DNA of 64,000 bases from Pontibacillus sp. HMF3514 (GTDB lineage Bacteria; Bacillota; Bacilli; Bacillales; BH030062): contig NZ_CP047393.1 in the NCBI RefSeq assembly GCF_009858175.1, positions 2,356,001-2,420,000 on the forward strand, given 5' to 3'. This document shows positions 20,247-37,390 of the stretch, one piece after another. The notes under the pieces are model-generated. The model made no database searches and was not told the DNA's origin. It saw nothing but the letters and a program-made list of their open reading frames with translations. Each line of letters begins with the position of its first letter. Within the stretch, counting starts at the first letter, position 1. The position numbers and the translations under genes were made by a program.

Positions 20247-20254
20247 TACATAGT

Positions 20255-20898: not shown

Positions 20899-20980
20899 TA
20901 CTTAGAACCTCCTGAAAGTTATACTTGTATATTATGTAAGGGAAGGTTGATTAGATTCGGGGTCCGTCCTTATAAACAAC

Positions 20981-21610
20981 TTAGCTTAATACAGGATCTA
21001 AAACTGTTATTCCACCTATTCCATTAATGATGGACTGATCTACTTTATTTACAAAATTGCCATATGTTTTGTGTTGCGTTAATAATACAAATGCTTCTTT
21101 TAAGTCGAATTCAAAATCACCCGGATGGCGCCACTCTCTTTCGTGTGTCCAATCTACAATCATATCAGGGTTTGATAAATCAAAATTAACAATCCTCCAC
21201 CACTCTTCTTGTGGAATAAATGACTTGGCCTTTTCTTTTCTTTCATAAATCACCGGTCTTCCACCTTTATTAAAAACATATTCTTTCCTAAATGCTATCC
21301 CTATAGGCTTATACCTTACTTTCATTCCAGTATGTAACTCTCTTAAGTTCTGTTCATAAAAGCTATTTTGAGATGCCCCGTATACAGGAACATCTTGAAA
21401 ACAAACAGCACCTTGATTCCCTATTATAAATCCTTCTCTTGGATCACTTTGATATAAGGTTTTATCTTCTAATATCTTAATTAAGTTATTCATACCAGTG
21501 TTGCCATCATACTCCTTAGTTAGGTGAATTAAATATCCTGACATATCACTTCTATTTCTGATTCTTTTACTCCATTCATCTCGATTATAAATAAATGCCA
21601 CAATCCCCAT
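20981..21610 (-). CDS. AbiGi-like abortive-infection family protein
   Basis: A 209-residue soluble protein with a pattern I associate with AbiGi/DUF2971-type proteins: SGYLIHLTKEY, NLIKILEDKTLY, GAVCFQDVPV, YKPIGIAFRKEYVFNKGGRP and DWTHEREWRHPGDFEF. The last, with paired Glu and Arg, is the most diagnostic. The AbiGi name rests on recall of the family pattern. Upstream GAAAGGAGATGGGG ribosome site. It lies in a run of probable defence genes. Confidence 0.5.
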   Translation of the reverse strand: MGIVAFIYNRDEWSKRIRNRSDMSGYLIHLTKEYDGNTGMNNLIKILEDKTLYQSDPREGFIIGNQGAVCFQDVPVYGASQNSFYEQNLRELHTGMKVRYKPIGIAFRKEYVFNKGGRPVIYERKEKAKSFIPQEEWWRIVNFDLSNPDMIVDWTHEREWRHPGDFEFDLKEAFVLLTQHKTYGNFVNKVDQSIINGIGGITVLDPVLS

Positions 21611-21747
21611 CTCCTTTCTCGATTTACTTCGATAAAAAAAGATGTATTCCTTCTCTATATAACAAATCTCCTAGATAATGTGAGGTGGTTGGCTCGCTTT
21701 TGGATGCTCTGTAAGCAAATATGAAGAAAGCACCCCTTTTTGGGATG

Positions 21748-22200
21748 CTATTTCTTTAATTGTTTAATTAACTTTTCGTGTTTTTTACTAAAACCCTCGA
21801 ACAATTTTTTGTCTATCTCTTGGACTTCACCTTTATCTATTAATTCTTTGTACCTTGAATAAAAATAGTAAATATCATCAGCTAATTCTGGGTGTCTTTC
21901 TGCAACCGCCATCTTTATTTCATCCCAGTTTTTAGTTGTAAAGGGGCGCGTTGATTCATTAAAACCATATTGAACATTAAGCTTCTCTTTTTCGAGTATA
22001 TTTATTAAAGAGTTACCGTGAGCATCCTCCCGTTCATAAATTTCATAATTCTTTTCTAATTCATCCAATAGAGATATTTTAGCAATCCATTTAGCTCCAT
22101 TTTTATTTTTCTCTGTTGCCCATAACTCCTTGAAGGTATGTAGTAAAGCTCCGCCACCCAAACCAGATAATATACTTATTAATACTTCACCAACAGTCAA
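21748..22200 (-). CDS. Hypothetical protein with N-terminal membrane segment, 150 aa
   Basis: Residues 4-22 (GEVLISILSGLGGGALLHTF) could be a membrane anchor. The rest is charged and helical (EIKMAVAERHPELADDIYYF, FSKKHEKLIKQLKK). No family recognised; similar small anchored proteins occur in phage and defence regions. RBS GGGGGTGTGAAATTT upstream of ATG. Confidence 0.55.
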   Translation of the reverse strand: MTVGEVLISILSGLGGGALLHTFKELWATEKNKNGAKWIAKISLLDELEKNYEIYEREDAHGNSLINILEKEKLNVQYGFNESTRPFTTKNWDEIKMAVAERHPELADDIYYFYSRYKELIDKGEVQEIDKKLFEGFSKKHEKLIKQLKK

Positions 22201-22253
22201 ATTTCACACCCCCTATTTCATCTAATAATTCGACAAAAGAGGATATTTTCCTT

Positions 22254-22451
22254 CTAAACGTAATGTATTCGTTTTATTCTCGTATCAGTATATTCAAATA
22301 TCTCAAATTCCTCATAAGCTAATGTATAACTTTGATCATCGTGCCATTGATCTGTCCTTGTTCCGCTCCCTAACTCTCTTACGATCACACCATCAACATC
22401 ATTTAATATCTCAATAGGTTGTTGCTTTAAATAATCACAATAATTTCTCCT
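22254..22451 (-). pseudogene. Remnant of a small array gene
   Basis: An open frame of 66 codons (CDYLKQQPIEILNDVDGVIV, then GSGTRTDQWHDDQSYTLAYE) ends at TAG 22254 but has no start codon. An ATG with a ribosome site (GGAAAATTATGAAGGAG region) lies one frame off at its 5' end, so a one-base indel is likely. The D palindrome struck by IS110 copy 2 is immediately upstream. Confidence 0.5.
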
Positions 22452-22462
22452 TCATAATTTTC

Positions 22463-22489
22463 CTTATTGTTCAACTCTTCTGCCGCGTT
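22463..22489. repeat. D palindrome, left part, interrupted by IS110 copy 2
   Basis: CCTTATTGTTCAACTCTTCT followed by GCCGCGTT stands left of the element and AGTTGAATAACG right of it (from 24105). Joined, it is a leader-type D palindrome. The break is at CGTT/AGT as for copy 1. Confidence 0.75.
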
Positions 22490-24102
22490 CGTAATATAAG
22501 GTTAACCAGTTTTTACTGGTTGACCATTTTTTATATGGATCTATTATAACAGTAGCCGGGGTAGAACGTCTCTGCCCGTGGGGTTTGACCCCGTAAACTA
22601 AACAGTTCACCCCCTACTTGTAAAAACATGATTTAGCTGGTTGGGACCCTAGATCCCGTTTAACAAGCGAACCTGTGACATTACAAGGAGGATTAGGGGC
22701 ACCGGCAATATTTTTTGAGGAGGAGAATTCGAATGAATCCAGTCGTAGGTCTGGATGTATCTAAAGGGGAAAGTCAGGTCCAAGCATTCTTGGACAAGAA
22801 AAAGCCATATCGTAAGAATTTTAAAGTAGACCACACGCGAGATGGTTTAACGACGCTTCACGAATTTTTAAAGCATTTAAAGGAAGTTACGGGTCAAGAT
22901 CCAGCAATTGTTTTGGAGGCAACGGGACATTATCATGCGCCTGTTGTTCAATTTCTGGAGGAGCATAATTATTTATTAATCATTGTAAATCCATTGGTTT
23001 CTTTTAGAGCGAAAAGCTCTAATTTACGAAAGGTGAAAACTGATGCAGTTGATGCTTATCTTCTTTGTGAACTTTACTATAAGGAAGATTTAGAGCCTTA
23101 TAAAAAGCGAGGAGTTCAACTTTTAAACCTTCGTAATTTAACTCGGCAACATGAAAATATTACTGGGAACTTTATTCAAACAAAGTTACAGTTCCAAGCT
23201 GTATTGGAACAAGTATTTCCTGAATACAAAGGGGTTTTTGGTGAGCTATATTCTTTTGTTTCTTTACGGATCCTCAAAGAATATAAGTCCTCGGAAGATA
23301 TTTTAAGGACTAGTGAAGACAGACTGGCAAATCGAATAGCTGATTTATGTACAAGTCGTTCTGAAAAGTGGGCTTATGAAAAAGCACAAACTCTGAAAGC
23401 AGCAGCTGCTCGTAATCCTTTTAAAAAGACACTGTATCAAAGTCACCTATTAAGTATGGGAATGTATATTGATATGCTTCTTCAATTTAAAGAGCATCTA
23501 TCAAAGTTAGATGCAGAGATAGATACTCTAGCTAAAGAAATTGAAGAATATAAGATTATTAAATCTATCCCTGGTATCGGAGAAAAGATCGCTGCCACGA
23601 TTATTTCTGAAATTGGGGAAATAGATCGATTTAATCACCCTAAAAAGCTTGTGGCTTTTGCCGGTGTTGATCCAAGTGTGTTTGAATCAGGTCGCTTTAC
23701 AGCCAGTAATAATCGCATTACTAAAAGAGGTTCTAGTCGCTTAAGGCACGCTTTATATCTGGCTGTCTGTTGTGCGATTAGAGACAAACGGAAAAAGAAA
23801 ACAACCGATGAAATACTCCCTAGAAATAAGAAATTGAGAGAATTTTACGATAAGAAACGAAACGAAGGTAAACCTTTTAGAGTAGCAGTCATCGCTTGTG
23901 TTAATAAGCTTTTACATTGGATCTATGCTCTTTTAAAAAGCAGAACTAACTTCCAAGAAATAGCTTGATAACTATATCTGCCTATATAGAACAAAACCTT
24001 CCAATATAGTTTTAATGGAAGGTTATTTGGCATGTTCTTTTTTATTTTATCATGTCTTTTTTCAGTTTTTTATTGAAAAATGTTGACAAACTATTAGCTG
24101 GT
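22490..24102 (+). mobile_element. IS110-family element, copy 2 (about 1.61 kb)
   Basis: Left end CGTAATATAAGGTTA and right end TTGACAAACTATTAGCTGGT match copy 1. The leader of about 240 bases before the transposase carries the same conserved blocks (GGGTAGAACGT, GTTCACCCCCTACT) and is the probable bridge RNA source. Same orientation and same target step in a D palindrome as copy 1. Confidence 0.85.
22733..23968 (+). CDS. IS110-family transposase (DEDD), diverged copy
   Basis: About 411 residues from the ATG (MNPVVGLDVSKGESQ) behind GAGGAGGAGAATTCGA; the frame also opens six codons earlier without a signal. DEDD residues are in GLDVSKG, VLEATGHYH and KTDAVDAYLL. The C-terminal IPGIGEKIAATII and GSSRLRHAL segments are kept. 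Differs from copy 1 at many positions, so the two arrived separately or long ago. Confidence 0.95.
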   Translation: MNPVVGLDVSKGESQVQAFLDKKKPYRKNFKVDHTRDGLTTLHEFLKHLKEVTGQDPAIVLEATGHYHAPVVQFLEEHNYLLIIVNPLVSFRAKSSNLRKVKTDAVDAYLLCELYYKEDLEPYKKRGVQLLNLRNLTRQHENITGNFIQTKLQFQAVLEQVFPEYKGVFGELYSFVSLRILKEYKSSEDILRTSEDRLANRIADLCTSRSEKWAYEKAQTLKAAAARNPFKKTLYQSHLLSMGMYIDMLLQFKEHLSKLDAEIDTLAKEIEEYKIIKSIPGIGEKIAATIISEIGEIDRFNHPKKLVAFAGVDPSVFESGRFTASNNRITKRGSSRLRHALYLAVCCAIRDKRKKKTTDEILPRNKKLREFYDKKRNEGKPFRVAVIACVNKLLHWIYALLKSRTNFQEIA

Positions 24103-24228
24103 TTAGTTGAATAACGATCTTTAATTCATTTTACCATATTATTACCAAAAACCCTCTAAATCACATAATTAGTGATGCAAATTTACATGCAGTTTACCCT
24201 ACAATTTCGACTACATTTTCACACAAAA

Positions 24229-24284
24229 AAGTAGTTCAATTAGGGGTACAAATTGCAATATTGTACTCCAAAACTGAACTACTT
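24229..24284 (-). terminator. Long hairpin, terminator-like in minus sense
   Basis: AAGTAGTTCA (24229-24238) pairs with TGAACTACTT (24275-24284), with an inner GGTACAA/TTGTACTCC pairing; a run of T follows in minus sense. The surrounding 24103-24465 holds no gene, only a promoter-C-like segment near 24130. Confidence 0.5.
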
Positions 24285-24465
24285 AGTAAAATATGACATA
24301 GTTTTTACAAACACTTGTTATGTTTTACTGTCTGTCATTTAACTATTTACCTTTTTAACGCCAGCTTTTTGAAAATCAACGTTTCTACTTTAGATAGCAT
24401 GAGCTTCGTCACAATGAAACAATCTAGGGAGTGTCACACATAAGAATCTATGTTCTTAGTCTAAA

Positions 24466-24495
24466 CAAAAAGAACTTGAAAACAACAAGTCCCTC
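24466..24495 (-). terminator. Terminator of the 24.5-26.6 kb operon
   Basis: Minus sense: GGACTTGTTGTTTTCAAGTT followed by CTTTTTG, just behind the stop at 24503. Confidence 0.6.
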
Positions 24496-24502
24496 CTCCA
24501 AG

Positions 24503-25318
24503 TTATCCAACGAACCCACCCAAAGTATCAGCTAATTCACTTCCCAAATTAAAAAGAGTTGTACCAGTGGTTGCTATCTCATTGATTCCTCTAACTTTTC
24601 CCATAGCAGTTTTCAAAATTGCTTTTTTAGGCTTTTCACTTTCTGCTTCTTGAACTGCTGCTTCCAAAAATTCAACTGCTTCCTCTTTTTCTTCAATTGG
24701 AATAGTTTCATCCTTTTGAAGTTCCTTAACAAATTTTTCAGCTACTTCCTTTAAACCCTCAATGTTTCCCTCATTATAGTTTTGATGAGCGGTTACTTGA
24801 CCTTGACCTTCAGCATGGTTGAATTGACCTTTGAAGTCACGATTGAAGGTGAAATGTGTTCCTGATTTCTTATCAAGTCCCATGTCTATTTTCATCTCCC
24901 CTAAATAATTCACTATGTGGTCAACCAGAGGTTGAACAACTTGATTATTGAAGCCTTCCATATGGTCCTGAAGTTTATTTGAACTACCATAACCATATGC
25001 AATGCTGAGAATATCGAGTTGATTGTCTGAAATGTACTTCAACATTTGATAAATGAAAGCAATTTCTTCTGACTCTCGAATTGGCAATTGGTATCGGTCA
25101 TGGTAACCTTTTTCTTGAATTTCTTTCTCGATGTCAAATTCCTCCACGTTATTCTCTTGAATAAAATCATTTATTGTCGGTGATTCTTCAATAAAGAGAA
25201 GGAACCTTTTCAGGTTTTCATTGTAATCTTGAAAGTTACAATTCAAGAACCTACTCGCCACTCTCCTAAAACTCAATGAAAGTTTCTGAAACTCTTTTTC
25301 TGTCAATGCCTCATTCAC
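24503..25318 (-). CDS. Hypothetical protein, 271 aa, third gene of a defence-like operon
   Basis: The N-terminal helical domain (FRRVASRFLNCNFQDYNENL) is followed by a Gly/Asn/Gln-rich linker (GQFNHAEGQGQVTAHQNYNE). Then come a charged helix and a C-terminal hydrophobic Gly-rich segment (TTLFNLGSELADTLGGFVG) that could touch a membrane. The linker resembles those in effectors of defence systems. The start lies one base after the zinc-ribbon gene stop region (1-bp gap), so translation is coupled. Family not recognised. Confidence 0.55.
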   Translation of the reverse strand: MNEALTEKEFQKLSLSFRRVASRFLNCNFQDYNENLKRFLLFIEESPTINDFIQENNVEEFDIEKEIQEKGYHDRYQLPIRESEEIAFIYQMLKYISDNQLDILSIAYGYGSSNKLQDHMEGFNNQVVQPLVDHIVNYLGEMKIDMGLDKKSGTHFTFNRDFKGQFNHAEGQGQVTAHQNYNEGNIEGLKEVAEKFVKELQKDETIPIEEKEEAVEFLEAAVQEAESEKPKKAILKTAMGKVRGINEIATTGTTLFNLGSELADTLGGFVG

Positions 25319-25319
25319 T

Positions 25320-25754
25320 TTAGTTCACCCCGCAAAATGGACAATAGATTGTTTCTCTTGTTTGGTCTGCATGTACCTTGATGGTCTTTTCGCAACAATG
25401 AAGTTCAATCTGATCTAACTGTTCATCTTCTTTCAGTTCTTTGGGCTGCTCCTCTTTCATTTCTTTGAAGTCAAAGCTGATTCCAGAGCCTTTCATGTTT
25501 CTATTGGTGTTTTTAAATGTCTTGTTCAATTGTTGTTTCAGATGATTTATTGCAAGTGTTTGAGCATGTTCAATTACGTCTTGAGATACAAAACTATTGC
25601 TTTCGTCAACCAAACCACAAGATGGACAGAAAAGTTCTAAAGTGTCTTCAGAGTCTATGTCTCCCCCTAAAGACTTGAACCTCTCTCCACAATAGGGACA
25701 CTCTAACGAGTAATATCCTTCGCTATCAGTAGGAATTGAGATTTTCTCATTCAC
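25320..25754 (-). CDS. Zinc-ribbon protein, 144 aa
   Basis: Two zinc-ribbon halves at the N-terminus (LECPYCGERFKS and LFCPSCGLVDES) and one Cys pair at each side of a C-terminal ribbon (LHCCEKTIKV, IYCPFCGVN). The middle is helical (VIEHAQTLAINHLKQQLNKT). Likely a nucleic-acid or protein binding adaptor; second gene of the three-gene unit. RBS GGAGGTGTTATGAGTGA upstream. Confidence 0.65.
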   Translation of the reverse strand: MNEKISIPTDSEGYYSLECPYCGERFKSLGGDIDSEDTLELFCPSCGLVDESNSFVSQDVIEHAQTLAINHLKQQLNKTFKNTNRNMKGSGISFDFKEMKEEQPKELKEDEQLDQIELHCCEKTIKVHADQTRETIYCPFCGVN

Positions 25755-25820
25755 TCATAACACCTCCAAGTCAATGATACCATTATATCACCCAAATGTT
25801 ATTTTTTGGATTTTTAACAC

Positions 25821-26615
25821 TTACTCTTTTTGAAAACTCTCTATCAAATAAATGCACATGGTTCCGCTCAAATTAATAGCAAACTTAGCATGTCTCTCAC
25901 TAGGTTTTGCATTCTTAATACCTTTACCGTGTGAATCGCTAAACTCATTTCGTAAGGAACCAAGTCCCGTGACAACCCCATTTATTGAGCCAAGGATTTT
26001 CTTAAATATGCCTTCACTGTGTTGATCGGGAGCCATGTTCAATATATGAGAGACCTGTTTATACAATTGACTTAAACTATCTCCCTTTTTGTACTCCTCA
26101 CCTTTCTCATCAAGTATCCATTTCAAAGTGCTCTCAATCATGGATAATGTAGATGTAATTGCGTCTTCAGGATCTGACTTTGATTGATTTAGAGCACGTT
26201 GCCAATCCGTCTCCACATGCTCGATGCTATATTGATTTGTGTACTCTTCTATTTCACTTGGAATGAATGTAGAATTGATATATTTAATTTTGTCACCAGA
26301 AAATAAATATCCATCACGTTCAAGTAATTTAAAAAACTGATCCAACCTTTTATCTCCCCAAACATTATGGTGAATACCTACTTCAATAAAGAACATCTCA
26401 AAAACGTTAAAAAGTTTTCGTAAGTCATTGGGGTTCATTAAGTTTAAAGATGCAACGTATGTATCCGCAAGTGACCTTCTACTCCCACTCATTTTGCTAG
26501 TGTATTCATTTTGTTGATATATCCCTTCACTTTCAAATAATGTTTCAATTTTGTTTAGAGTGCTATATTCAGTCAACAAATCGTAGAAAACATGTAACGT
26601 CCGTTCACTAACCAT
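25821..26615 (-). CDS. Abortive infection protein with Abi_C domain
   Basis: 264 residues. The C-terminal Abi_C (AbiJ-type) domain is visible: ITSTLSMIESTLKWILDEKG, SLSQLYKQVSHILNM and LGSLRNEFSDSHGKG with RHAKFAINLSGTMCIYLIE at the end. The R-N...D-x-H-G-K-G motif is the family hallmark. The N-terminal 130 residues are helical. Abi_C proteins take part in abortive phage defence. First gene of the unit; RBS GGAGGTATTAC before ATG. Confidence 0.75.
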   Translation of the reverse strand: MVSERTLHVFYDLLTEYSTLNKIETLFESEGIYQQNEYTSKMSGSRRSLADTYVASLNLMNPNDLRKLFNVFEMFFIEVGIHHNVWGDKRLDQFFKLLERDGYLFSGDKIKYINSTFIPSEIEEYTNQYSIEHVETDWQRALNQSKSDPEDAITSTLSMIESTLKWILDEKGEEYKKGDSLSQLYKQVSHILNMAPDQHSEGIFKKILGSINGVVTGLGSLRNEFSDSHGKGIKNAKPSERHAKFAINLSGTMCIYLIESFQKE

Positions 26616-26852
26616 GTAATACCTCCATGTATGATACTGCTCCTACTATCTTATCAAAATATGGAATTAATTATAATCTTGATTAACCTCTTATTTTCAA
26701 TAAAATAAGACACTAATCCTTCTTTAGATGTGTTTGGTATGTATGAAATGGCAGTATGGTTTTTTGCATATTAAAACAGACTTCAAAATAAGAGTTTTGT
26801 ATAAAACTTTGCACATTTTGCGGTCTATTAATTTACTTATTATTCCACCCCC

Positions 26853-26887
26853 GACACCCAATAGCTGAATATTTGAGTTCGAGATTA
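26853..26887 (-). repeat. Core A, unit 18 (degenerate)
   Basis: GACACCCAATAGCTGAATAT followed by TTGAGTTCGAGATT stands directly behind the PIN gene. It shows that the array pattern reaches at least 26.9 kb. Confidence 0.6.
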
Positions 26888-26900
26888 TTCAATAATTTGT

Positions 26901-27686
26901 TTAAAATGCAGGCTCATGTGTAGCCATATGTTCATAGTATTCTTCATTTACTTGATCAGATGTTATTATCTCCTGGGAGAAATTCTCTTTCAAAGTTTTA
27001 AGTAAGAATATAGAATAATTTAGTTCCATATCATACTCACCTATAAACTCCATTTGTAATTGAGGATGGAGTTTAGTTTTATCATCGGGAGCACTAAAAT
27101 CTGTATAATTGTTAGTAATAAAGTAAACCTGATCTTCGTCACTCCAAACATCAACTAATCGTTTCATTTGTTTAATTGACTCATATACTACCGCATCACC
27201 ATACTCTTCTTTTATATGACATGGCGCAGCCTTAAAAATTTTCCTTTTCATTGCTTGAGAAATAATTGGATCATCAGCAACAATATGAAGGTTGTCTGTT
27301 CTATTCATTAAAGATTTAATTTTTTTACCTTGGGTTTTCTCAATTATATCTTTTTTATCTTTAAGAACTTCCTTTTTCCTCTTTAGTTCTTTCACAAATT
27401 CTTCGAAGTATCTTCCATCATATTTGCTGTTTTCAACATTCAACCAATTTATCCCTTTCATTTTTTCAATGACTTCATCTAGGTCTCTTATTAAATCACG
27501 CATATAATTCTTTGTATTCCTATTAACCTCACTCAATACTATCTCAGGAACTACCAGTTTAACTTCGACATTATCCGCTAACATGTCAAACAATACTTTA
27601 TGCGTATTAGCATTCACACTCGTATCTCTATTTATTATCATATTAATATAAATGTTTGAATCTAAAACCAGATATTTCACGAACAC
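26901..27686 (-). CDS. PIN-domain ribonuclease-like protein (DUF4935 type)
   Basis: 261 residues. The N-terminal PIN fold carries acidic residues in LVLDSNIYIN, VPEIVLSEVNR and IVADDPIISQAM, and a late acidic segment FITNNYTDFS. A long helical insert with KKKEVLKDKKDIIEK is typical of DUF4935-like PIN proteins. No partner antitoxin is adjacent, so a toxin-antitoxin role is unlikely; tRNA or mRNA cleavage on infection is possible. RBS GGAGGGGTGTTC before GTG/ATG start. Confidence 0.7.
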   Translation of the reverse strand: MFVKYLVLDSNIYINMIINRDTSVNANTHKVLFDMLADNVEVKLVVPEIVLSEVNRNTKNYMRDLIRDLDEVIEKMKGINWLNVENSKYDGRYFEEFVKELKRKKEVLKDKKDIIEKTQGKKIKSLMNRTDNLHIVADDPIISQAMKRKIFKAAPCHIKEEYGDAVVYESIKQMKRLVDVWSDEDQVYFITNNYTDFSAPDDKTKLHPQLQMEFIGEYDMELNYSIFLLKTLKENFSQEIITSDQVNEEYYEHMATHEPAF

Positions 27687-27796
27687 CCCTCCAAAATAAA
27701 TTTTAAAGCATTAACAAATATAGAAGTCCACCCCAAAACTGAGGATACCTAAATTTTTAATTTCGCTGAAATTTGTAAAAGTCCTTCTAACAAAAA

Positions 27797-27830
27797 TCAC
27801 GCCGCCAAAAATTTGGCAGCGTAATACAAT
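27797..27830 (-). terminator. Terminator of the controller-like regulator gene
   Basis: Minus sense: ACGCTGCCAAATTTTTGGCG followed by GCGTGATTTTTG, a strong hairpin right behind the regulator stop. Confidence 0.75.
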
Positions 27831-27832
27831 GA

Positions 27833-28072
27833 TTATATTTCTTCATTCTTTAATAATATACCTTCTACTTCAGTAATAAAATTACTTGGCTTGACTTTTA
27901 GTTGATCGCAAATAGTAAAAATTGTATGCACCGTAGCCCTTCTCTTCCCTCTCTCTAACAATGATATGTATGTTCGATCTAAGTCACATCTTAAAGCTAA
28001 TTCTTCTTGAGATAAACCAGCACTTTTTCTATATCGCTTTAGTACATCTCCAATTACTTCCTCTAATTTCAA
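27833..28072 (-). CDS. Controller-protein-like XRE regulator, 79 aa
   Basis: A small Cro/C1 helix-turn-helix protein with GLSQEELALRCDLDRTYISL as the HTH and LERGKRRATVHTIFTICDQL after it, closely like the C proteins (for example C.PvuII) that time restriction-modification gene expression. It is divergent from the RAMP-like/HNH genes, and dyads in the shared intergenic region match the C-box form GACT-n3-AGTC. It probably activates and later limits those genes and itself. Start ATG 28072. Confidence 0.75.
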   Translation of the reverse strand: MKLEEVIGDVLKRYRKSAGLSQEELALRCDLDRTYISLLERGKRRATVHTIFTICDQLKVKPSNFITEVEGILLKNEEI

Positions 28073-28126
28073 GTAATAGTCACCTTCTATAATAGTTACT
28101 TAATACTTTGATTGTTCAAAAAATGT

Positions 28127-28188
28127 GACTTATAGTCCACAGACTATAGTATTCAAATCAAAAAATTGGCTATAATGATGACTATAGT
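28127..28188 (+). promoter_or_regulatory. C-box-like operator dyads and promoter of the RAMP-like/HNH operon
   Basis: GACT-TAT-AGTC (28127-28137) is followed after four bases by GACTATAGT (28142-28150), and ACTATAGT recurs at 28181-28188. A -10 TATAAT (28171-28176) has no good -35; the paired dyads lie where an activator would replace it. The third dyad is at the expected transcription start. Confidence 0.65.
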
Positions 28189-28213
28189 AAACAAATAATA
28201 GGAGGTATTATAC

Positions 28214-28810
28214 ATGGCTATTGTATTGGCTGAGGTAGAATTTGAAGGGATAAAACCACTTCTATATAATAGTTTTACTGTAGAGGCATTGTCTTTAAAA
28301 AGGCCTGAAATGAAAGGGTCTGCAGGTAATAATCCAGAAGAGTGGAAGAGTTCTGTAAAAGTTACAGAGTCAGGTCAGTTTTATTTACCTTTTTCGTATG
28401 CATTTGCTTGTGCGCTTAATGGCGCAAAAATGCTTCGCAAGGGAAAAGGGACATACCAAAAAGATGTAGCAGCTACTCTAGAAATACTTGATGAAAAGAT
28501 TTTGTTAAACAGAAACCTACCGAAAGACATTTTATCAAAATCAGAATTAGATGATGTTTTTTTAGATGTTCGAGGAGTAACAAATAAAAATAGTAGGGGA
28601 AGCAAAAATATAAGGTACAGAGTTTGTTTAAACCCTGGTTGGTCTGGTAAATTCAGAATTCAATTTGATAATACAATTGTAGGCAAAGAGCATATGGAGC
28701 AAATCTTTATTGATGCAGGGAAGTTTTCAGGCTTTGGTGATGGTAGAAGTATTGGCTTTGGGAAATTTTCTATAAAGAAATTTTCCTATATTGGTGAGAA
28801 GATTGCCTAA
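28214..28810 (+). CDS. RAMP-like (Cas7/Cas5-like fold candidate) protein, 198 aa
   Basis: The N-terminal strand FEGIKPLLYNSF is followed by FYLPFSYAFACALNGAKML, a central NIRYRVCLNPGWSGKFRI, and a C-terminal Gly-rich loop AGKFSGFGDGRSIGFGKFSI. This layout matches a phage/island family I recall with GxxPLLM starts and IGLGDFRP..GPFGKF ends, which looks like a RAMP ferredoxin-type RNA-binding fold. Start ATG 28214 with AGGAGGTATTATAC. The overlapping HNH gene indicates a functional pair. RNA binding is inference. Confidence 0.55.
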   Translation: MAIVLAEVEFEGIKPLLYNSFTVEALSLKRPEMKGSAGNNPEEWKSSVKVTESGQFYLPFSYAFACALNGAKMLRKGKGTYQKDVAATLEILDEKILLNRNLPKDILSKSELDDVFLDVRGVTNKNSRGSKNIRYRVCLNPGWSGKFRIQFDNTIVGKEHMEQIFIDAGKFSGFGDGRSIGFGKFSIKKFSYIGEKIA

Positions 28811-29093
28811 AAACAGATTAGATTCAGAGTTATGGAGAGATGTAAGAAAAAAGATATGGAATAGGGACGGCGGAAAATGCACTAAGTGTTTGGAGAGTGT
28901 AGACCTCAATTCCTGTCATATAGACCATAAGAAATCTGGCTTGATGGGTACGAACAAAATGAAGAACTTACGTACATTGTGTCGAAGGTGTCATGTACTT
29001 CGTGCTGACATAAGACATCAGGGTATGATTGATAGAGCATTACAAGATGGAATTATTAATCCTGGATGGAGGGATAATGTTTGGGATGATTAA
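28803..29093 (+). CDS. HNH endonuclease, about 96 aa, coupled to the RAMP-like gene
   Basis: Compact HNH nuclease: WNRDGGKCTKCLESVDLNSC, HIDHKKSG, then NLRTLCRRCHVLRADIRH give the H-x-D-H, Asn and second His plus two zinc Cys pairs. The start is TTG 28803 with GGTGAG just upstream, overlapping the RAMP-like stop by 8 bases; TTG 28791 and GTG 28794 are also open. It is followed in the same transcript by the pentamer array. The controller-type regulation suggests its activity must be delayed on entry to a host. Confidence 0.8.
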   Translation: MPKNRLDSELWRDVRKKIWNRDGGKCTKCLESVDLNSCHIDHKKSGLMGTNKMKNLRTLCRRCHVLRADIRHQGMIDRALQDGIINPGWRDNVWDD

Positions 29094-29110
29094 GTAACAA
29101 TAAATTTATG

Positions 29111-29180
29111 CGGTGTGGTCTGGTGCGGTGCGATACGGTATGGCGTGGTGTGGTGTGGTCTGGTTTGGTACGGTTTGGCC
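29111..29180 (+). repeat. Tandem degenerate pentamer array (YGGYN)14
   Basis: Fourteen consecutive 5-base units without gaps. Position 1 is C or T in all 14, position 2 is G in all, position 3 is G in 13 (A in unit 5), position 4 is T in 12 and C in 2, and position 5 is any base. It starts 17 bases after the HNH stop and lies inside the same transcript, upstream of a terminator. No coding sense is evident. Confidence 0.85.
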
Positions 29181-29191
29181 TCAATAATGAA

Positions 29192-29226
29192 TATCTCATT
29201 GGAGACCGATCCAGTCATTTGAGATA
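29192..29226 (+). ncRNA. Stem-loop behind the pentamer array
   Basis: TATCTCA (29192-29198) pairs with TGAGATA (29220-29226); an inner TTGGA...TCCAG pair is possible. It lies between the array and the terminator and could mark the 3' part of an RNA derived from the array. Confidence 0.4.
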
Positions 29227-29245
29227 GAAACAAAACAACTTCTTT

Positions 29246-29288
29246 GGCTGCCATTTTTTCCAACCGGAAAGTGGTAGCCTGTTTTTTT
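29246..29288 (+). terminator. Terminator of the RAMP-like/HNH/pentamer transcript
   Basis: GGCTGCCATTTTTTCC pairs with GGAAAGTGGTAGCC around AACC, followed by TGTTTTTTT. It ends the + strand transcript after the array. Confidence 0.8.
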
Positions 29289-29687
29289 GTTTTATAGTTT
29301 TCTACCTTCTTCAATGGCACTTTCTACTTCTTGCTCATTTTGTGGTTCATTTTTATATAAATTCACGACATTTCTCACCCTTTTTTATTGTTTACATACA
29401 CAATCAAGAACTATAATTGCCTCTCTCTTTCATAGATATTATATAACTATACTCTTTATGCCCCTACTTTGTTAATTAAGAAACTAAAAGTGATGGGTAC
29501 CTGTTCACCTTGAATTAAGGATAGGTATAGTACTATTGCTGTTATTTGATAAGCTATACACACAAGATTGCTTTCGCTTATGTACTGATACATTTGAAAA
29601 GGCTGTCGAAAAAATTATTTATATCCTCAAGGAATAAAAGGACATTTTTCTTTTGACGTAGAATACCCTTTGAAAGGAGGAGTAACT

Positions 29688-29981
29688 GTGTCGAAACTAA
29701 TTACTGTAGAAAGAGCACAAAAGGAAGTAGAACGACTCCAACATTATTTGAAATTGGTGGAGGAGTATGAAGTGGATACTCTAGATAAATGGATAATCAA
29801 ACAATATGCCATAACTAACAGCATAAAGAGGGTGATAGAAAAGGCTCATGAACAGTACTTTGTAGAAATCGAAAGAGAGTATGTAGTTAGTGTAATTAAA
29901 AGTAAACCCAAAGATGAATTACATAAGACAATAAAATCAGGATATATGTTGAAAACAAGACCAAATAGAAGAAAATATTGA
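29688..29981 (+). CDS. Hypothetical protein, 97 aa
   Basis: Starts at GTG 29688 behind AAAGGAGGAGTAACT. All-helical and charged (ITVERAQKEVERLQHYLKLV, NSIKRVIEKAHEQYFVEIER) with a basic tail KTRPNRRKY. Not recognised. The 29289-29687 stretch before it holds no gene that I can see. Confidence 0.55.
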   Translation: MSKLITVERAQKEVERLQHYLKLVEEYEVDTLDKWIIKQYAITNSIKRVIEKAHEQYFVEIEREYVVSVIKSKPKDELHKTIKSGYMLKTRPNRRKY

Positions 29982-30266
29982 TAAATGATAGGTACATTCA
30001 TCTAAAGCACTAAGACAATTAGGATATGGTTCCAATGATATTCGTCTTCATGGGAGATTCTGAGCAACATATTGAATCTCCTCAATTAAACAATCATTCC
30101 CACTGAGTTGATTTACATTCTAAAGTTCCTTTCAATCATTTCTTCAAATTGAACTCGAAATTCCACTGATTAGATCAATGGGTTATAACTAAATTCTATG
30201 TACTTTAAGGTGAGTTTAATATGGTTCGTCGTATCATTGAACGATTTTTGACCTATAACATTCCAT

Positions 30267-30324
30267 GAGAAAACCACCTCTAAATGCAGATCATTTCACA
30301 TGCAATTCTGGAGGTGGTTTTCTC
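30267..30324 (-). terminator. Large inverted repeat behind the R-M-like operon
   Basis: GAGAAAACCACCTC (30267-30280) and its exact complement GAGGTGGTTTTCTC (30311-30324) surround 30 bases. It probably ends the minus-strand operon whose last stop is at 30368. The stretch 29982-30266 shows no gene. Confidence 0.6.
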
Positions 30325-30367
30325 ATATTATTGGTTCATTTTATTCTTTTATTTATCCCATTAAAAA

Positions 30368-31555
30368 TTAAGCAAGGTGTACCAGACTGGCCGTTTTGGG
30401 ATCATATACCACGTTAGTAATAGAACCATCCATAATACGCTCTACTGCTTCATCAATTACATGTATCGGCACGAGAAACCATTCCTTAGGGTGTACAGGG
30501 TGGCCAAAGCGATCAAGGATGGTGAGGTCTATATGAGCTGGGGTAAAGATACGGTGTAATATGCCCTCAAGCTTTGTCCGTTTGATCCCGGCCAATTTGT
30601 AGGTAGCAATGACTTCGACATCAGCCATAAGATATGTGGCATCGTTTTTTGCATTGGCTATACGGGTTTCTAATTTTCCACCCGTAACTCCGATCTTGTG
30701 AATTAGTTCCCTGTGCTCAATAACGAAGGGATGATTGGAAAAACTTCGTAAGACATAGATTGTACCACTCTCAATATCTTCTTCATCCCAGGTTGCGCTG
30801 AAAAATGAACCTAAATCAGGATCTGTCAAACGGCGCCCAACCTCATCTTTGTACAGGGCGCGCTGCAAAGACCTAAGGAGGAGGTTATTCTCGGTCCCAT
30901 TGGAATAGATAACCCTTAGTCGAGCATCAGGTTGCCCATTTGGTGCTTTAAATTCTTCCCCCTTCTCAGCCACGTACACAAGTTGGCCACCTAAAATGAA
31001 GAAGTTACCAGTATTTACACTTGTATCCTTACCAAATGGCCTTGCTTGTCGCACCCCTGTACTGAGTTCATACTCAGCTTTATCAAACAATGGTTGGAAG
31101 CGACTGAACTCACTACACTTCTCCCTTTTAGCGATTTCCTCCGCCGCCTTTATTTCAGTTTGGGAACGTACATGGTTTAATTCTGAGATATCGATATCGG
31201 AATTGTTATCCCTATCTTCAAGTTCGGAAAGCAAATCATCGTCATCCATTGTTTCTTTTGAATCTGTTGTTGAAACTTCATTTTTGTTCAATAGACCTTG
31301 ATAATCGAGTGAAGAAAGAAGAGCTCTACATTCTTCCTGTGCTCGCAAGCTATCGAGTCGCACGGCGTACATTCTTTCAAATACTTCATCTACTTCTCCA
31401 TGTTGAGGAAGACGTTCGTATCTCTCGACAAATCCCTGAATCTCCTTAAAACCAGCAATGATGTGTTCTTCGCGCGACGAGTATGAGTTTGTCTTCACTT
31501 TCTCCTTCTCAACACCAAGTTCATCTAGTAAATCATCATCAGAAAGCCTAGTCAT
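30368..31555 (-). CDS. GIY-YIG nuclease family protein (third gene of R-M-like operon)
   Basis: 395 residues from ATG 31555, chosen for GGAGGGAATAGAA before it; it overlaps the helicase stop by 8 bases (ATGACTAG). The N-terminal half is acidic and helical (DDDLLDELGVEKEK, DDDLLSELEDR repeated motif). The C-terminal GIY-YIG-like nuclease (T5orf172/Mug113 type) shows GTIYVLRSF, HKIGVTGGKLETRIANAK, KLEGILHRIF and the HPKEWFLVP end. Probably the DNA-cutting subunit of the system. Confidence 0.75.
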   Translation of the reverse strand: MTRLSDDDLLDELGVEKEKVKTNSYSSREEHIIAGFKEIQGFVERYERLPQHGEVDEVFERMYAVRLDSLRAQEECRALLSSLDYQGLLNKNEVSTTDSKETMDDDDLLSELEDRDNNSDIDISELNHVRSQTEIKAAEEIAKREKCSEFSRFQPLFDKAEYELSTGVRQARPFGKDTSVNTGNFFILGGQLVYVAEKGEEFKAPNGQPDARLRVIYSNGTENNLLLRSLQRALYKDEVGRRLTDPDLGSFFSATWDEEDIESGTIYVLRSFSNHPFVIEHRELIHKIGVTGGKLETRIANAKNDATYLMADVEVIATYKLAGIKRTKLEGILHRIFTPAHIDLTILDRFGHPVHPKEWFLVPIHVIDEAVERIMDGSITNVVYDPKTASLVHLA

Positions 31556-33641
31556 TTCTATTCCCTCCAGCGCCATTTTCTACCGTCTGTTTCGCTCGGT
31601 AGCGTCTTAAGGCTGCAACACCTTCGGCCATGCGTTTTTCCCATGGATCTTGGGCGTTAATATCGGGTAATCGTCCAATTTCCTTTTTGAATTGAAGAGC
31701 TCTCTCAGCTAGCGCTCTAGCCTCTTCGTAAGAAATACTTACACGTTTAGCAGTAATCACTTCCGAAACCTTTTTTAAGCTGTCCTCATTTATAGATTTG
31801 GAAAGAATGGCATACGCCTCACTAAATGGATTGATTCTATCAATAAGATCAATGTCCAATTCACGCACATCCATTATAAATTTACGCACACCATCTACGA
31901 GAGCAGTGTTGGAGTGAGGATCATTACTACCACCTGTAGAGCCTCCTTGTGCAGTCTGTTTAGCCTGCTGAGTAAGGTTAAGAGCAGCGATGGCTTGCTG
32001 GCGTACTGCTTCGTGATCCTCTGCGTCTAGGTTAGGGTACTTTTCATTGATTATTTTGCCCATTCTAACCTGGGTCAATTCCTCAGGAACTACTTCGTAG
32101 TCAAATAAGCCTCGCTCAATTGTTGTTTTGTCTTGAACGAATGTCGCAATAACTTCGTTCAAGTCTTCACGACAAATACGCACAGCTTCCTCGCTCTTAG
32201 GCTCGGAGAGCCCATTTATCTCGATTTCTAATTGACCTGTATCATGGTTGAAGCCCACATTACACTTTTCCGGGTCATAACCAGTAGCCCCATAGTCAAC
32301 CCCAGGCTCCGGACCACTTGTTGTACTCTTAGACTTAAACTCAAACCGTGGAGCAAGTACTGACTCCATCAGCAAGCTAGCAGTAATAGCCTTCAGTGTA
32401 TCGTTAACTGCCTCTGTAACAGCCTGCTCAGAAGCGTCCAGTTCCGCAATCAGATTAGTGAAACGGGCACGGGTTTTACCTGGAGCATCACGAGTAGCAC
32501 GACCAATTATTTGAACAATCTCTGTGAGACTAGCACGATAACCGACCGTAAGCGCGTGCTCACACCAAATCCAGTCAAATCCTTCCTTTGCCATTCCAAG
32601 CGCAATGATGATGTCTACATAGTCACGGTTGTTTTTATTTGAAGGATCTTTTAATGCAGTGGATACACGGTCGCGCTTCGTCTGGTCATCATCAACCAGG
32701 TCGGCAATTCGAAGAATTCTGCCAGAAGACATCTTTACTAGCTGAAAGCCAGTAGAAGGATCAGTTCCCTGCCATTCACCTAGTTCTTCAATAATGTGTT
32801 CGACTTCCTTAATCTTGTTCTTCGTGCTTTCACGCGAATTAACGTTCGGTATGTGGATGATAGTCTTTTCAAGCGGATCTAGCACTTTAAGGATGTCATC
32901 TATATATGAATTCTTATAAAAAAAATAGCCAACATCTAGTTGCTTAAGGTACTCGTAGCCGTTGAGTTGCTCATAATAAGTATAGGTAACAGTATCGAAC
33001 TTAGACTCGTCCTGAGGAGCCAACACTGCCTCAGCGTCACCTCTGAAGTATGAACCGGTCATAGCCACAATATGGACCCGATCACGAGAGATGAACTCCC
33101 CAAGATGAAGGCCGAGTTTGTTGTCGGGGTTAGCCGAAACGTGATGAATTTCATCCACGGCAATTAACCTATTATCGAACGCTTCAACCCCTAATTTATC
33201 AACTGAAAACCGGAAGGTAGCGTGAGTACAAATCAATACTTCGTCGTCACTATCAAGAAAAGCTTCTACAGAACCAACCTTCCCCCCATTATCAGTACCG
33301 GGCGCGTTACATAAGTTCCATTTCGGCTTCACTCTCCAATCGGCCCAAAACCCAAATTGGCCTAAGGGTTCATCATTGAAACTGGCACCAATCGACTTTT
33401 CTGGCACCACTATTATTGCCTGCTTAAGCCCTTGGTTATATAGCTTGTCAAGGGCAATAAACATCAGTGCTCTACTCTTCCCGGATGCGGGCGGCGACTT
33501 TATAAGTAAGTACTGCTCACCTCTACGCTCATACGCTCGTTCCTGCATTGGTCGCATACCCAACTCATTGGTCTTAGTGGAACTTTGGTTACGGGCATAG
33601 GACACAGAAATTGAAGTGTTTGATTTATTTCCGTTGGTCAT
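31548..33641 (-). CDS. SF2 DEAH-type helicase (second gene of R-M-like operon)
   Basis: 697 residues. Walker A in SPPASGKSRALMF, motif II in LIAVDEIHHVS, motif III in VAMTGSYFRG, motif VI in EIVQIIGRATRDAPGKTRAR. The C-terminal 270 residues are helical and family specific. It is an ATP-driven translocase in the manner of type I/III restriction enzymes. It overlaps the methyltransferase gene by 17 bp and the nuclease gene by 8 bp, so synthesis is coupled. RBS GGGGAGGAAGACGC. Confidence 0.85.
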   Translation of the reverse strand: MTNGNKSNTSISVSYARNQSSTKTNELGMRPMQERAYERRGEQYLLIKSPPASGKSRALMFIALDKLYNQGLKQAIIVVPEKSIGASFNDEPLGQFGFWADWRVKPKWNLCNAPGTDNGGKVGSVEAFLDSDDEVLICTHATFRFSVDKLGVEAFDNRLIAVDEIHHVSANPDNKLGLHLGEFISRDRVHIVAMTGSYFRGDAEAVLAPQDESKFDTVTYTYYEQLNGYEYLKQLDVGYFFYKNSYIDDILKVLDPLEKTIIHIPNVNSRESTKNKIKEVEHIIEELGEWQGTDPSTGFQLVKMSSGRILRIADLVDDDQTKRDRVSTALKDPSNKNNRDYVDIIIALGMAKEGFDWIWCEHALTVGYRASLTEIVQIIGRATRDAPGKTRARFTNLIAELDASEQAVTEAVNDTLKAITASLLMESVLAPRFEFKSKSTTSGPEPGVDYGATGYDPEKCNVGFNHDTGQLEIEINGLSEPKSEEAVRICREDLNEVIATFVQDKTTIERGLFDYEVVPEELTQVRMGKIINEKYPNLDAEDHEAVRQQAIAALNLTQQAKQTAQGGSTGGSNDPHSNTALVDGVRKFIMDVRELDIDLIDRINPFSEAYAILSKSINEDSLKKVSEVITAKRVSISYEEARALAERALQFKKEIGRLPDINAQDPWEKRMAEGVAALRRYRAKQTVENGAGGNRND

Positions 33642-36414
33642 GCGTCTTCCTCCCCTTTGTTTTTCTTGTATTAGTTGAATTTGTCATTTTGGTATAAAGA
33701 TCAAACATTTTCTCCAATCGCTCTGTGTCGTTAAGGAAACGACGGCCTATAAAAATGCGCTCCAACACCTCATCATTCCGCTCGTGTGCCTGACGCAAAT
33801 CCTCAGGCATTTTCTCGGAATCATAGAGATCGGCGATCGTTTTCGGGAAGTGCGCTTCACGAGCGAGTAGTATGTCCTCTGCGCAACGGGTCAGATCTGC
33901 TTTGTTTTTTTCGGTCAATGCAGGAACAGGAAATGTGTTCCACCCGAGTGTGTTGGAATAGGAGAATCGCATTTCTAACCTAACACAGACAGCACCTATC
34001 CATACCCAGTGCATGCGTGAAGCTATCAGGGCGAGGTTCCAGAGTGGCGCATCCAGTAAGGCAAAATTCTTGTTACTAACTATACTGCCGGATGGGAGTA
34101 ATCCAACTGGTAAATATGACCGATCCTCTGAGCTCACCCCAGGGACAACTATAATCTGCTCGTCTCCGCTTTGACGTACCTCGCCAAAACGATAAGGGAA
34201 ACTAGCAAGATCTTGTGTGGCTTTTCTGTTAGAGTTCTCTCGCTTCTTCCGAACGCTCTCAAATCGTGAGAATAGCCACTCATTTGCGATCGCCTCCTCA
34301 CTATCACTTTCCTTAACCCATATACATCTTCGTTCTCGACCTCGAATATATTCCTGCGATCCGAAAAATGGGCGAATAAAATGAGCCGGGACATTATGCA
34401 TTTGTATAGCTCTCTCGGCTTCTTCAAGGTCTAATAACAAGCCACCACCATCGTTAGGCATGTTACCGAAGGTCATTTCGTTAATCTCGCTTAACGGCTT
34501 ACTCCGTGTACCAACTATCGTGTTCGAGCCTGGTACAAGGTAAGCGTTGATGTGCCCAGTAGATTTTGCAATAACTCCACCATCTGGAGTTTCACTGTAA
34601 ACTTTCCGGTTTTTAACTGGCTTGTTAGAAATACCTACGATAACCACTGTTACCCCAGCATTCTTACTTGCGAGGTTGGCCCACTTAAACGATGTATGAG
34701 CGAAAGCAATTTGTTGTCCAGAATCAAAGATCAACGACCACAAGTTTTTCACTTGTCTCCCTTGAGATATTGAATTAGTGGCCACAAATGCTGAAACTGT
34801 CGGAGTATTCATACCATAATCCGTTGCTTTCAAAAACCAACCGGAAACGTAATCTAATGACTTCCAGTTTTTAGTTCTTCCGGCGAATATTAAACGAAGA
34901 TCCTCTTTCTGTTCCTCTGATTGCCATTGACTCCCTCTATAAGGAGGATTTCCACAAATATATGTCTCCCCACCCTCATTTTCGAAGTCTATTTCCACTT
35001 GATCCAATGGGGTGCTAAAAAGGTCGTCGGCATGGTGCTTCACATTTGTTCCTGTTGGTGGACAAATACTAAGCCAATCCAACCGAAGCGCATTACCACA
35101 TGTGATCCAGTTTTTCTTTGATAATGGCAAAAACTCAGAAATAGCTAGCGTCATTCCACGATAAAGAACGTCACACTGGAATTCAGCAATTATGAGGGCC
35201 AAACGAGCAATTTCGGCTGAAAAGTGACGTAGCTCGATGCCGCGAAAATTGGTAAGTGGAATGTCACTCTTACGACCTTCTTCATCTCGTCGCTCGTTAA
35301 TCGTGTTTTCAATTTCCCTCATCTTCTTGTAGGCGATTACCAGGAAGTTACCTGATCCGCAAGCTGGATCAAATACCCGAATTTTCGATAAACGCTTACG
35401 TAAATTAAGTAACATTCGAGGGTTGTCACCAGCTATTTCAAGCTGCTCATGCAGATCATCCAAAAACAGTGGATTAAGTACCTTCAAGATATTTGGCACA
35501 CTCGTGTAGTGCATTCCGATCATACCACGTTCGTCCTCGTCAGCAACTGCCTGAATCATAGAACCGAAGATGTCAGGATTGATTTTAGTCCAATCGAGAT
35601 TACCGATGTGCAGAAGGTAGGACCTTGCGATTTTGCTAAATCTAGGCACTTCGGTACCGCCAGTGAAGAGTCCTCCGTTCACGAATGGGAATCTGTCCGC
35701 CCAACGTGGTAGTTTTTCTGCCTTACGGTTTGGAATTTTTGTACTCATAGCACGGAAAATTTCACTGATTACCTCATGCATGTTTGAGGCATCACTCGCA
35801 CTCATCTGCTCGATGGTTTCAGTAAACATACCACTCCTTCTAAAAATACCTGTGTCTTCGGCAAAGAAGCAGAAAATCAACCGAGCCATGAAGTGGTTCA
35901 TTTCGGTGCGCCGTTCGGTAGTTCCCCATTCTGGGTTGTATTTTAATAACTCAACATATAACCTATTCAACCGACTTGTTGCTCTTATATCGAAAGAACT
36001 GTCACGTACCTGCTTTACGGTCGTGATACCAGCAAGCGGGAGAAAAAAGCCAAAATGATCTGGTAAATCCTCATAAGCACAAACAATTGTTTCTCCGGAC
36101 TCCAGTTCCTCTGATTCTATATATTCACCGTCTGTAGCGAGGATATAACGCGCTTTTGACTTGGTCGTTGCTCGGCTTTCTTTTAGATTAGAAAGGGTCT
36201 TCGTTACTTCACCAAGTGGGGCAACCGCAATATGTATGTTGTTAGTCTGTAGAACTCCGCCCAGATCGGATTTATTCGTTTCCCCTGAGCGCAAGCGTTT
36301 GATTGTTGTCTCTTTGTTTCCAAATGCCCGCAGAAAGACAAAGGGAAAATCCTCCTTATCAAAAGGCTGGGATATCAACTCGGAGACTGCTTCTTCAATT
36401 TCAACTGGATTCAT
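33625..36414 (-). CDS. MmeI-family class I SAM DNA methyltransferase
   Basis: 929 residues. The MmeI-like helical spacer (MNHFMARLIFCFFAEDTGIF, NGGLF, MIGMHYTSVPNIL) precedes the catalytic domain with SAM motif I VFDPACGSGNFL and motif IV ICGNPPYRGS (NPPY, amino-methylating N6A or N4C type). A target-recognition region and C-terminal helices follow. The N-terminal PD-ExK nuclease of true MmeI is not evident; instead a short different domain is present, fitting a separate nuclease subunit. RBS GGAGAGGAGATACAG before ATG. Confidence 0.85.
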   Translation of the reverse strand: MNPVEIEEAVSELISQPFDKEDFPFVFLRAFGNKETTIKRLRSGETNKSDLGGVLQTNNIHIAVAPLGEVTKTLSNLKESRATTKSKARYILATDGEYIESEELESGETIVCAYEDLPDHFGFFLPLAGITTVKQVRDSSFDIRATSRLNRLYVELLKYNPEWGTTERRTEMNHFMARLIFCFFAEDTGIFRRSGMFTETIEQMSASDASNMHEVISEIFRAMSTKIPNRKAEKLPRWADRFPFVNGGLFTGGTEVPRFSKIARSYLLHIGNLDWTKINPDIFGSMIQAVADEDERGMIGMHYTSVPNILKVLNPLFLDDLHEQLEIAGDNPRMLLNLRKRLSKIRVFDPACGSGNFLVIAYKKMREIENTINERRDEEGRKSDIPLTNFRGIELRHFSAEIARLALIIAEFQCDVLYRGMTLAISEFLPLSKKNWITCGNALRLDWLSICPPTGTNVKHHADDLFSTPLDQVEIDFENEGGETYICGNPPYRGSQWQSEEQKEDLRLIFAGRTKNWKSLDYVSGWFLKATDYGMNTPTVSAFVATNSISQGRQVKNLWSLIFDSGQQIAFAHTSFKWANLASKNAGVTVVIVGISNKPVKNRKVYSETPDGGVIAKSTGHINAYLVPGSNTIVGTRSKPLSEINEMTFGNMPNDGGGLLLDLEEAERAIQMHNVPAHFIRPFFGSQEYIRGRERRCIWVKESDSEEAIANEWLFSRFESVRKKRENSNRKATQDLASFPYRFGEVRQSGDEQIIVVPGVSSEDRSYLPVGLLPSGSIVSNKNFALLDAPLWNLALIASRMHWVWIGAVCVRLEMRFSYSNTLGWNTFPVPALTEKNKADLTRCAEDILLAREAHFPKTIADLYDSEKMPEDLRQAHERNDEVLERIFIGRRFLNDTERLEKMFDLYTKMTNSTNTRKTKGRKTHDQRK

Positions 36415-37373: not shown

Positions 37374-37390
37374 AAAATTCCTCCCCTATG

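Follow-up and report, generated by a model that had tools for sequence, protein, structure and literature searches.

The subject of this analysis is a locus at positions 27833-29288 of a 64,000-nucleotide stretch of the Pontibacillus sp. HMF3514 genome (the window; positions 2,356,001-2,420,000 of NZ_CP047393.1 in the one-contig, 3.98 Mb assembly GCF_009858175.1). It is very probably a chromosomal, nuclease-bearing VIPR, that is, a controller-switched operon of a Vipr protein, an HNH nuclease and one vrRNA, by which the HNH protein would attack invader DNA under RNA guidance. The loci described as VIPR combine three elements, namely Vipr, which is a small RAMP protein, an accessory gene, and vrRNAs built from 9-16 YNNGG units; in the relatives studied, the vrRNAs co-purify with Vipr, GGY forms the scaffold and NN reads double-stranded DNA with one base skipped (PMC13142463, a 2026 preprint). 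At the window locus, the gene set, the Vipr homology, the RAMP fold, the tract, an intact HNH motif, a C-like protein and a C-box-like site are supported by sequence or model; vrRNA production, cutting by HNH, timing by the C protein and the identity of the target are inferred.

A previous interpretation made from the DNA letters only (the sequence-only reading) had listed a divergent regulator, a RAMP-like open reading frame (ORF) overlapping an HNH ORF, a pentamer tract, a predicted hairpin and a terminator-like site. All of these were found at 27833-29288. Its proposal of a new system was dropped, since the locus belongs to the already described VIPR (PMC13142463). Its further idea, that the RAMP-like protein holds an RNA from the tract, whose variable bases would confer specificity and whose fixed GG would set the register, is supported by what the preprint found for relatives. 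In 2026, VIPR was put forward as a precursor of CRISPR (PMC13142463), and the proposed transition from a weapon of phages to a defence of hosts is in need of test cases. Compact and chromosomal, with an intact HNH motif, a single guide and a controller of the restriction type, the window locus lets this step be tested directly. The operon comprises the following features:

28200-28205, plus strand: AGGAGG, ribosome site of vipr, read from the sequence
28214-28810, plus strand: vipr, RAMP protein with Gly-rich loop, 198 amino acids (ORF scan; profile, AlphaFold2 and Foldseek)
28791-29093, plus strand: HNH nuclease ORF overlapping vipr, 100 amino acids, likely the Vipr-accessory protein (PF01844)
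29110-29181, plus strand: vrRNA guide tract of 14 GGYNN units, with one NN at 29110-29111 before the first unit (sequence and tandem-repeat scan)
29192-29226, plus strand: hairpin 3' of the tract, a possible vrRNA tail (predicted fold)
29246-29289, plus strand: terminator-like site with its stem at 29246-29279 and a T-rich tail (terminator scan)

For the protein encoded by vipr, a profile was built from 40 sequences (window protein and relatives). The SUSP1 Vipr protein (36pp) was its single significant match among solved structures (E = 3.3e-10), and the homology spans profile positions 64-195, the Gly loop included, but is distant. The SUSP1 locus further differs in having four vrRNAs and in belonging to a type with predicted DNA-binding accessories rather than a nuclease (PMC13142463). 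The AlphaFold2 model calculated from the same alignment (predicted local distance difference test, pLDDT, 90.3; predicted template modelling score, pTM, 0.84) has a RAMP fold. With this model, the best Foldseek match was the Csm chain 6xn3_F (E = 2.8e-7, TM score 0.61), and the best 50 of 676 matches were CRISPR effector structures throughout (Csm, Cmr, type VII, Cas7-11). The sequence-only reading had staked its RAMP-like protein on such a structure prediction, and the predicted fold bears it out. The family phrog_4652 (PHROG, function unknown) also matches the protein (E = 1.5e-11).

Fold and Gly-rich loop are shared with the Cas7/Csm3 and Cas6 RAMPs and, by analogy, an RNA-scaffolded oligomer may be shared as well; in contrast to these, the window has a single RAMP gene and a five-base repeat guide rather than a spacer. 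A remnant of Cas6 or of a CRISPR system, to which weak profile matches point (TIGR01877, E = 2.8e-5; Pfam RAMPs, 0.015; PADLOC Cas6, 2.8e-6), is nevertheless extremely improbable. The scores lie below the curated cut-offs where such exist (24.7 versus 58.65 bits for TIGR01877, 16.2 versus 22.1 bits for Pfam RAMPs), no adaptation or other cas gene was named among the neighbours scanned, where no dedicated CRISPR array search was run, and the only significant solved match of the profile is a Vipr.

The units of the tract occupy 29112-29181 at an exact spacing of five bases, the first GG lying 18 bases past the HNH stop codon. The best period-5 GG score of the window was 11, whereas 4 was never exceeded in Markov simulations (n = 200), nor in the real window when periods of 3, 4, 6 and 7 were scored, so the tract is far beyond chance. 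The sequence-only reading had described 14 tandem YGGYN units. The number is correct and the formula is true locally, as all 13 scored units of the window (13 of 13) have a pyrimidine for their second N, but among 377 tracts this property is seen in only 3, counting that of the window. Family-wide, the unit is GGY plus NN: among the 5746 units of these 377 tracts (counting GG-starting units only, in tracts with at least 8 of them), position 3 was C or T in 93% and positions 4 and 5 were mixed.

Regularly spaced repeats may also serve self-regulation, for which TRAP is the model, and here they would be a regular binding site for the RAMP protein on its own transcript, with NN as spacer. The five-base spacing and the place of the tract directly after the coding genes would suit this explanation. 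It is very unlikely, however, given the mixed positions 4 and 5, the several relatives with more than one tract, upstream and downstream of vipr, and the target specificity which the preprint assigns to NN (PMC13142463).

That tract and vipr gene belong together was concluded from a tract-first search. Viral contigs were searched with the pattern (GGYNN)x11+GGY, genes being ignored, and at least 120 stretches were obtained. Using a Vipr profile that had gone through three rounds of rebuilding with the ORFs of a set of loci containing the 120 stretches, a Vipr homologue was present in 88 of 120 among the matches listed; with the window Vipr alone as query, 29 of 120 were positive, likewise among the matches listed. 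Some of the 32 stretches without a homologue are short or cut at the tract. Control stretches chosen by an unrelated pattern contained a homologue in 0 of 23, this control being narrow because many of the 23 share one gene family (0.17 Mb versus 1.08 Mb in the test; matches of one pattern, apparently from few phage gene families). Within the 88 listed stretches, gene and nearest tract lay on the same strand in 86, and their distance had a median of 16 bases and was within 1500 bases in 87. The counts (88/120 versus 0/23), the common strand and the short distance together led to the conclusion.

Between HNH and the tract, the terminator scan gave no terminator-like site, hence one transcript for vipr, HNH and tract is plausible. 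The folding z-score was -3.38 for 29175-29290, terminator included, and merely -0.76 for 29094-29290. In Rfam, the region 20000-40000 had zero matches at E up to 1, and the sole match of 29060-29320 was a sub-threshold rliE (E = 0.13). As to the tracts of other loci (designated by L numbers), virus-borne relatives without HNH (L015, at 5612-6097; L012; L016) have long or multiple tracts, several of them ending in GGTTTTA or similar, and the unit of L015 is GGANN instead of GGYNN.

The HNH ORF matches PF01844 with E = 9.9e-7 and 29.3 bits (cut-off 21.4), and the residues D45, H46, N55 and H68 and the cysteines 30, 33, 64 and 67 are invariant in 12 of 12 aligned sequences. Its start in the ORF list is TTG 28791; since most relatives begin with MPK or MPR at the matching place, TTG 28803 is the likelier true start. 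A putative HNH nuclease is thus what stands here as the accessory (vap) gene with a DNA-related function. With the nuclease VIPR types (III or V), the locus shares the Vipr RAMP, an accessory DNA enzyme, the GGY/NN tract (14 versus 9-16 units), the single-vrRNA layout and the defence-gene setting; types III and V lie in defence-rich neighbourhoods and are linked to host defence in the main text of the preprint (PMC13142463). The words HNH, controller, C-box and helix-turn-helix are absent from that main text (PMC13142463). Defence genes are abundant around the window locus, with several defence-model matches within 15 kb (PDC-M14A/B, an AbiJ-like gene with Abi_C domain and a type IIG MmeI-like gene).

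Repression, of phage, is the activity tested for VIPR, cutting not being among the tested activities, and the accessory of type II VIPR is a predicted DNA-binding protein (PMC13142463). The locus might accordingly be a silencer, in which Vipr and vrRNA keep the target from being transcribed, with HNH acting as a non-cutting helper like those type II accessories; the presence of HNH in virus-borne members of the clade (22 of 35 distinct loci) would also agree with this. We regard such a silencer as unlikely, because the metal-site and catalytic residues of HNH, which a pure tether does not need, are invariant, and because the locus is surrounded by defence genes.

Upstream of vipr, the divergent regulator and the candidate control sites are arranged as follows:

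27796-27825, minus strand: terminator-like site after the regulator (terminator scan)
27833-28072, minus strand: C-protein-like helix-turn-helix (HTH) regulator, 79 amino acids, TTG start (ORF scan; HTH_3, E = 1.9e-14)
28123-28148, plus strand: candidate C-box-like operator, ATGTGACTTATAGTC at 28123-28137 overlapping a palindrome at 28131-28148 (sequence searches)
28171-28176, plus strand: TATAAT, read from the sequence, a candidate -10 box for the vipr-HNH operon
28180-28188, plus strand: GACTATAGT, half-site 3' of TATAAT, read from the sequence

The best solved matches of the regulator were C.BclI (E = 8.9e-10), the restriction-modification controller protein 3clc (2.1e-8), which we take to be C.Esp1396I, and C.AhdI (6.3e-7). 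The same top families were obtained with the regulators of L008 and L006. The restriction controller proteins as best matches and the adjacent C-box-like site support the sequence-only reading in calling the regulator C-protein-like. The palindrome is a perfect 7+4+7 (TATAGTC-CACA-GACTATA), and ATGTGACTTATAGTC occurred in 0 of 100 shuffles. Its 15 bases are the start of the C.Esp1396I 25OL oligonucleotide as given in an excerpt of PMC3758141. The GACTnnnAGTC box and the palindrome alone are weak, because their chance expectations in the window are 0.67 and, with two mismatches allowed, 0.23. The TATAAT is missing from the output of the promoter scan, which requires a -35 box too. Among 11 promoters including the window's, the exact GACTnnnAGTC was present in two (window and L008), GACTATAGTC in L001, another palindrome, ACTTATAAGT, in six and neither kind in two, these counts standing without a shuffled control.

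Compared to the C proteins C.BclI, C.Esp1396I and C.AhdI, the window regulator has in common the small HTH protein governing a nuclease operon, the GACT-type box and the operator-oligonucleotide identity, the latter within the excerpt named. Different from type II systems, it stands beside an RNA-guided nuclease, no methyltransferase is found in the operon and it is divergent from the nuclease gene. C proteins postpone endonuclease expression in a new host, according to an excerpt of PMC4041747. Type II restriction-modification was set aside as an explanation for the locus, no paired methyltransferase being present in the operon; the one methyltransferase detected in the scanned neighbourhood is that of the type IIG MmeI-like gene, which occupies 33625-36414 of the opposite strand.

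The clade of the window comprises 60 rows for 59 loci (L143 has two rows), repeat fetches of one record being dropped; L226, L229 and L230 are DNA-identical to L010, L006 and L007 and were left out of the counts. The order regulator, vipr, HNH and tract is repeated in relatives at 35-46% identity. Cell- or plasmid-borne members include 20 distinct loci with HNH downstream, plus the Vipr fragment L217 without HNH. A tract was detected by the automatic threshold in 15 of these 20; pentamer tracts near homologues, on which the sequence-only reading had made its proposal depend, are therefore a recurrent feature. Virus-borne members amount to 35 distinct loci, of which L011, L013, L154, L159 and L169 miss a tract by threshold. 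The nuclease is not exclusive to hosts, as is evident from the 22 virus-borne loci with HNH mentioned above; for L146, an HNH match of an earlier search lies outside the distance limit of the script. Two vipr-HNH pairs were seen on one contig (L143), and one Gottfriedia strain has two loci with different tracts (L007 and L010).

When the 1200 bases upstream were searched with a profile built from 12 found regulators, mostly cell-borne, a divergent HTH regulator was present in 15 of 20 distinct cell-borne HNH loci. Of the 21 distinct virus-borne HNH loci whose upstream DNA was long enough, 1 had such a regulator (L011). With a stricter cut-off in an earlier set, 12 of 39 HNH loci had a regulator versus 5 of 98 Vipr loci without HNH. 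The cell-borne loci with regulator are not independent, because many are one Bacillota group; L001, L002, L004 and L008 fall outside it. When the longest divergent ORF near vipr was searched with Pfam in 19 virus-borne loci, an HTH_3-type family was matched in 0 of 19, and among the matches obtained are genes for portal, tail and RusA proteins as well as one for a ribbon-helix-helix protein; this rule can miss a short regulator and picked the PIN gene in the window. The comparison set of 20 loci (19 cell-borne and the virus-borne L011), for which the regulator itself was used when known, gave an HTH_3 match in 15. Since the regulator is present in 15 of 20 cell-borne but 1 of 21 virus-borne loci, and HNH is virus-borne as well, this distribution suggests that the regulator rather than HNH may be the host-side addition.

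We tentatively propose, as a possibility somewhat short of even chances, that cell-borne HNH-VIPRs are RNA-guided restriction systems with a recruited restriction-modification controller circuit, the C-like regulator and its operator having been gained on the move from phage to chromosome and delaying the guided nuclease, and that the window guide is aimed at an invader membrane-protein gene. In the mechanism envisaged for the window locus, the divergently encoded controller probably binds the C-box in the promoter and switches the vipr-HNH-vrRNA operon, which would yield Vipr, the HNH nuclease and one vrRNA. The vrRNA tract would line up Vipr subunits on its GGY elements and read double-stranded DNA by its NN pairs, with one target base skipped per step, and the HNH protein would nick or cut the matched invader. 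When the system enters a new host, the nuclease would be held back by the controller, as restriction enzymes are by C proteins.

Vipr relatives are sparse: in counts that include the own genome, they were found at the level of the phylum in 5 of 398 genomes, at that of the class in 9 of 398 and at that of the order in 7 of 397. In the order-level search, 0 of 8 same-genus or same-family genomes had one. A gene that moves horizontally shows such a pattern. In tblastn searches, the window Vipr had no match in phages and matched two plasmid records. In the tree, it is placed among mostly cell-borne relatives, without starred support (87/90).

The target was searched for with the NN series of the window, which is, from 5' to 3', GC GT CT GC GC AC AT GT GT GT CT TT AC TT CT. 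If the base passed over at each 1-nt skip is the wobble base, the guide would read A-V-L-A-A-T-I/M-V-V-V-L-F/L-T-F/L-L. Because the second N is always a pyrimidine, this codon reading of a single tract would be hydrophobic and transmembrane-like. The own genome was covered in the target searches by the peptide alone.

Besides the narrow control of the tract-first search, several results weigh against a working, nuclease-bearing VIPR at the locus. A C protein is normally paired with a methyltransferase, and the vipr-HNH operon has none. The window Vipr forms the one long end branch (1.19) in the tree, and the tract unit at 29132-29136 is altered to GATAC, with GA for GG. By the automatic threshold, a tract is missing in 5 of the 20 distinct cell-borne HNH loci (L002, from Nostoc, L003, L005, L009 and L225), of which L003, L005 and L009 have degenerate tracts visible by eye. 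No hammerhead was detected at the window tract by the motif script or by Rfam at 29060-29320. In viral contigs, no skip-1 target was found for the core of 11 NN or the 5' seed of 9 NN; the 3' seed gave 23 matches, whose flanks agreed in just 0-3 of 12 bases, and the middle seed gave 9, the best with 23 of 30 bases. The predicted guide peptide matched nothing in phages and had one weak match in 21 genomes (E = 1.1, 22 of 30 bases). When 382 tracts were cross-matched with the collected loci, skip 1 gave 17 matches at ≥ 85% and skips 0, 2 and 3 gave 9, 9 and 4; at ≥ 90%, the numbers were 3 for skip 1 and 3, 1 and 3 for the others, so skip 1 is not clearly singled out. Four perfect skip-0 or skip-3 cross-matches came from the tracts of L087, L129 and L131, presumably low-complexity repeats.

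The long branch, the GA unit, the undetected ribozyme and the missing target could all be expected of a decayed VIPR copy, still recognisable, whose working guide is no longer made. We judge such decay improbable, as ORFs, ribosome site, HNH motif, Gly-loop residues and terminator-like and C-box-like sites are all present, and the ribozyme motif is also missing in 9 of 20 distinct cell-borne HNH loci, the window included.

In several relatives, the tract is immediately preceded by a hammerhead-like motif, GAAAC-hairpin-hairpin-CTGATGA; L001 and L141 have this motif after the tract as well, and L214 has it five times. It was found in 11 of 20 distinct cell-borne HNH loci versus 1 of 22 virus-borne HNH loci (L141). 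One copy of L214, searched as a stretch on its own, is a Hammerhead_II with 55.4 bits (gathering score 37). Rfam gave no hammerhead at gathering score in 16 other relatives, 8 of them with the script motif; hammerheads besides the L214 copy rest on the motif script and single-sequence folds. No such motif was found at the window tract, so the 5' end of the window vrRNA would arise otherwise. The preprint mentions hammerhead-interspersed arrays, the word hammerhead occurring once in its main text (PMC13142463). In L214, the five hammerhead-II-like motifs lie at about 2370-3161 downstream of vipr-HNH, with periodic GG after each. As seen by eye in motifs of the L214 type, the bases immediately 3' of the core might form pairs with loop I, and both sides change among loci.

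Of the surroundings of the locus, PDC-M14A/B is a two-gene candidate defence system at 24503-25754 on the minus strand (PADLOC, E = 8.1e-51 and 3.1e-101). Further neighbours are a PIN_12-domain gene, a helicase-like gene and a T5orf172-domain gene; at 30368-36414 on the minus strand, the MmeI-like type IIG enzyme is followed by the helicase-like and T5orf172-domain genes with operon-like overlaps. Three consecutive tyrosine recombinase genes near the defence genes (37391-42556, minus strand) are possibly the mobility module of an island. Three ORFs of equal length (268 amino acids) on the plus strand, at 1368-2174, 12333-13139 and 16658-17464, each contain the same TTTTTACA tandem near the end and are possibly copies of one insertion element.

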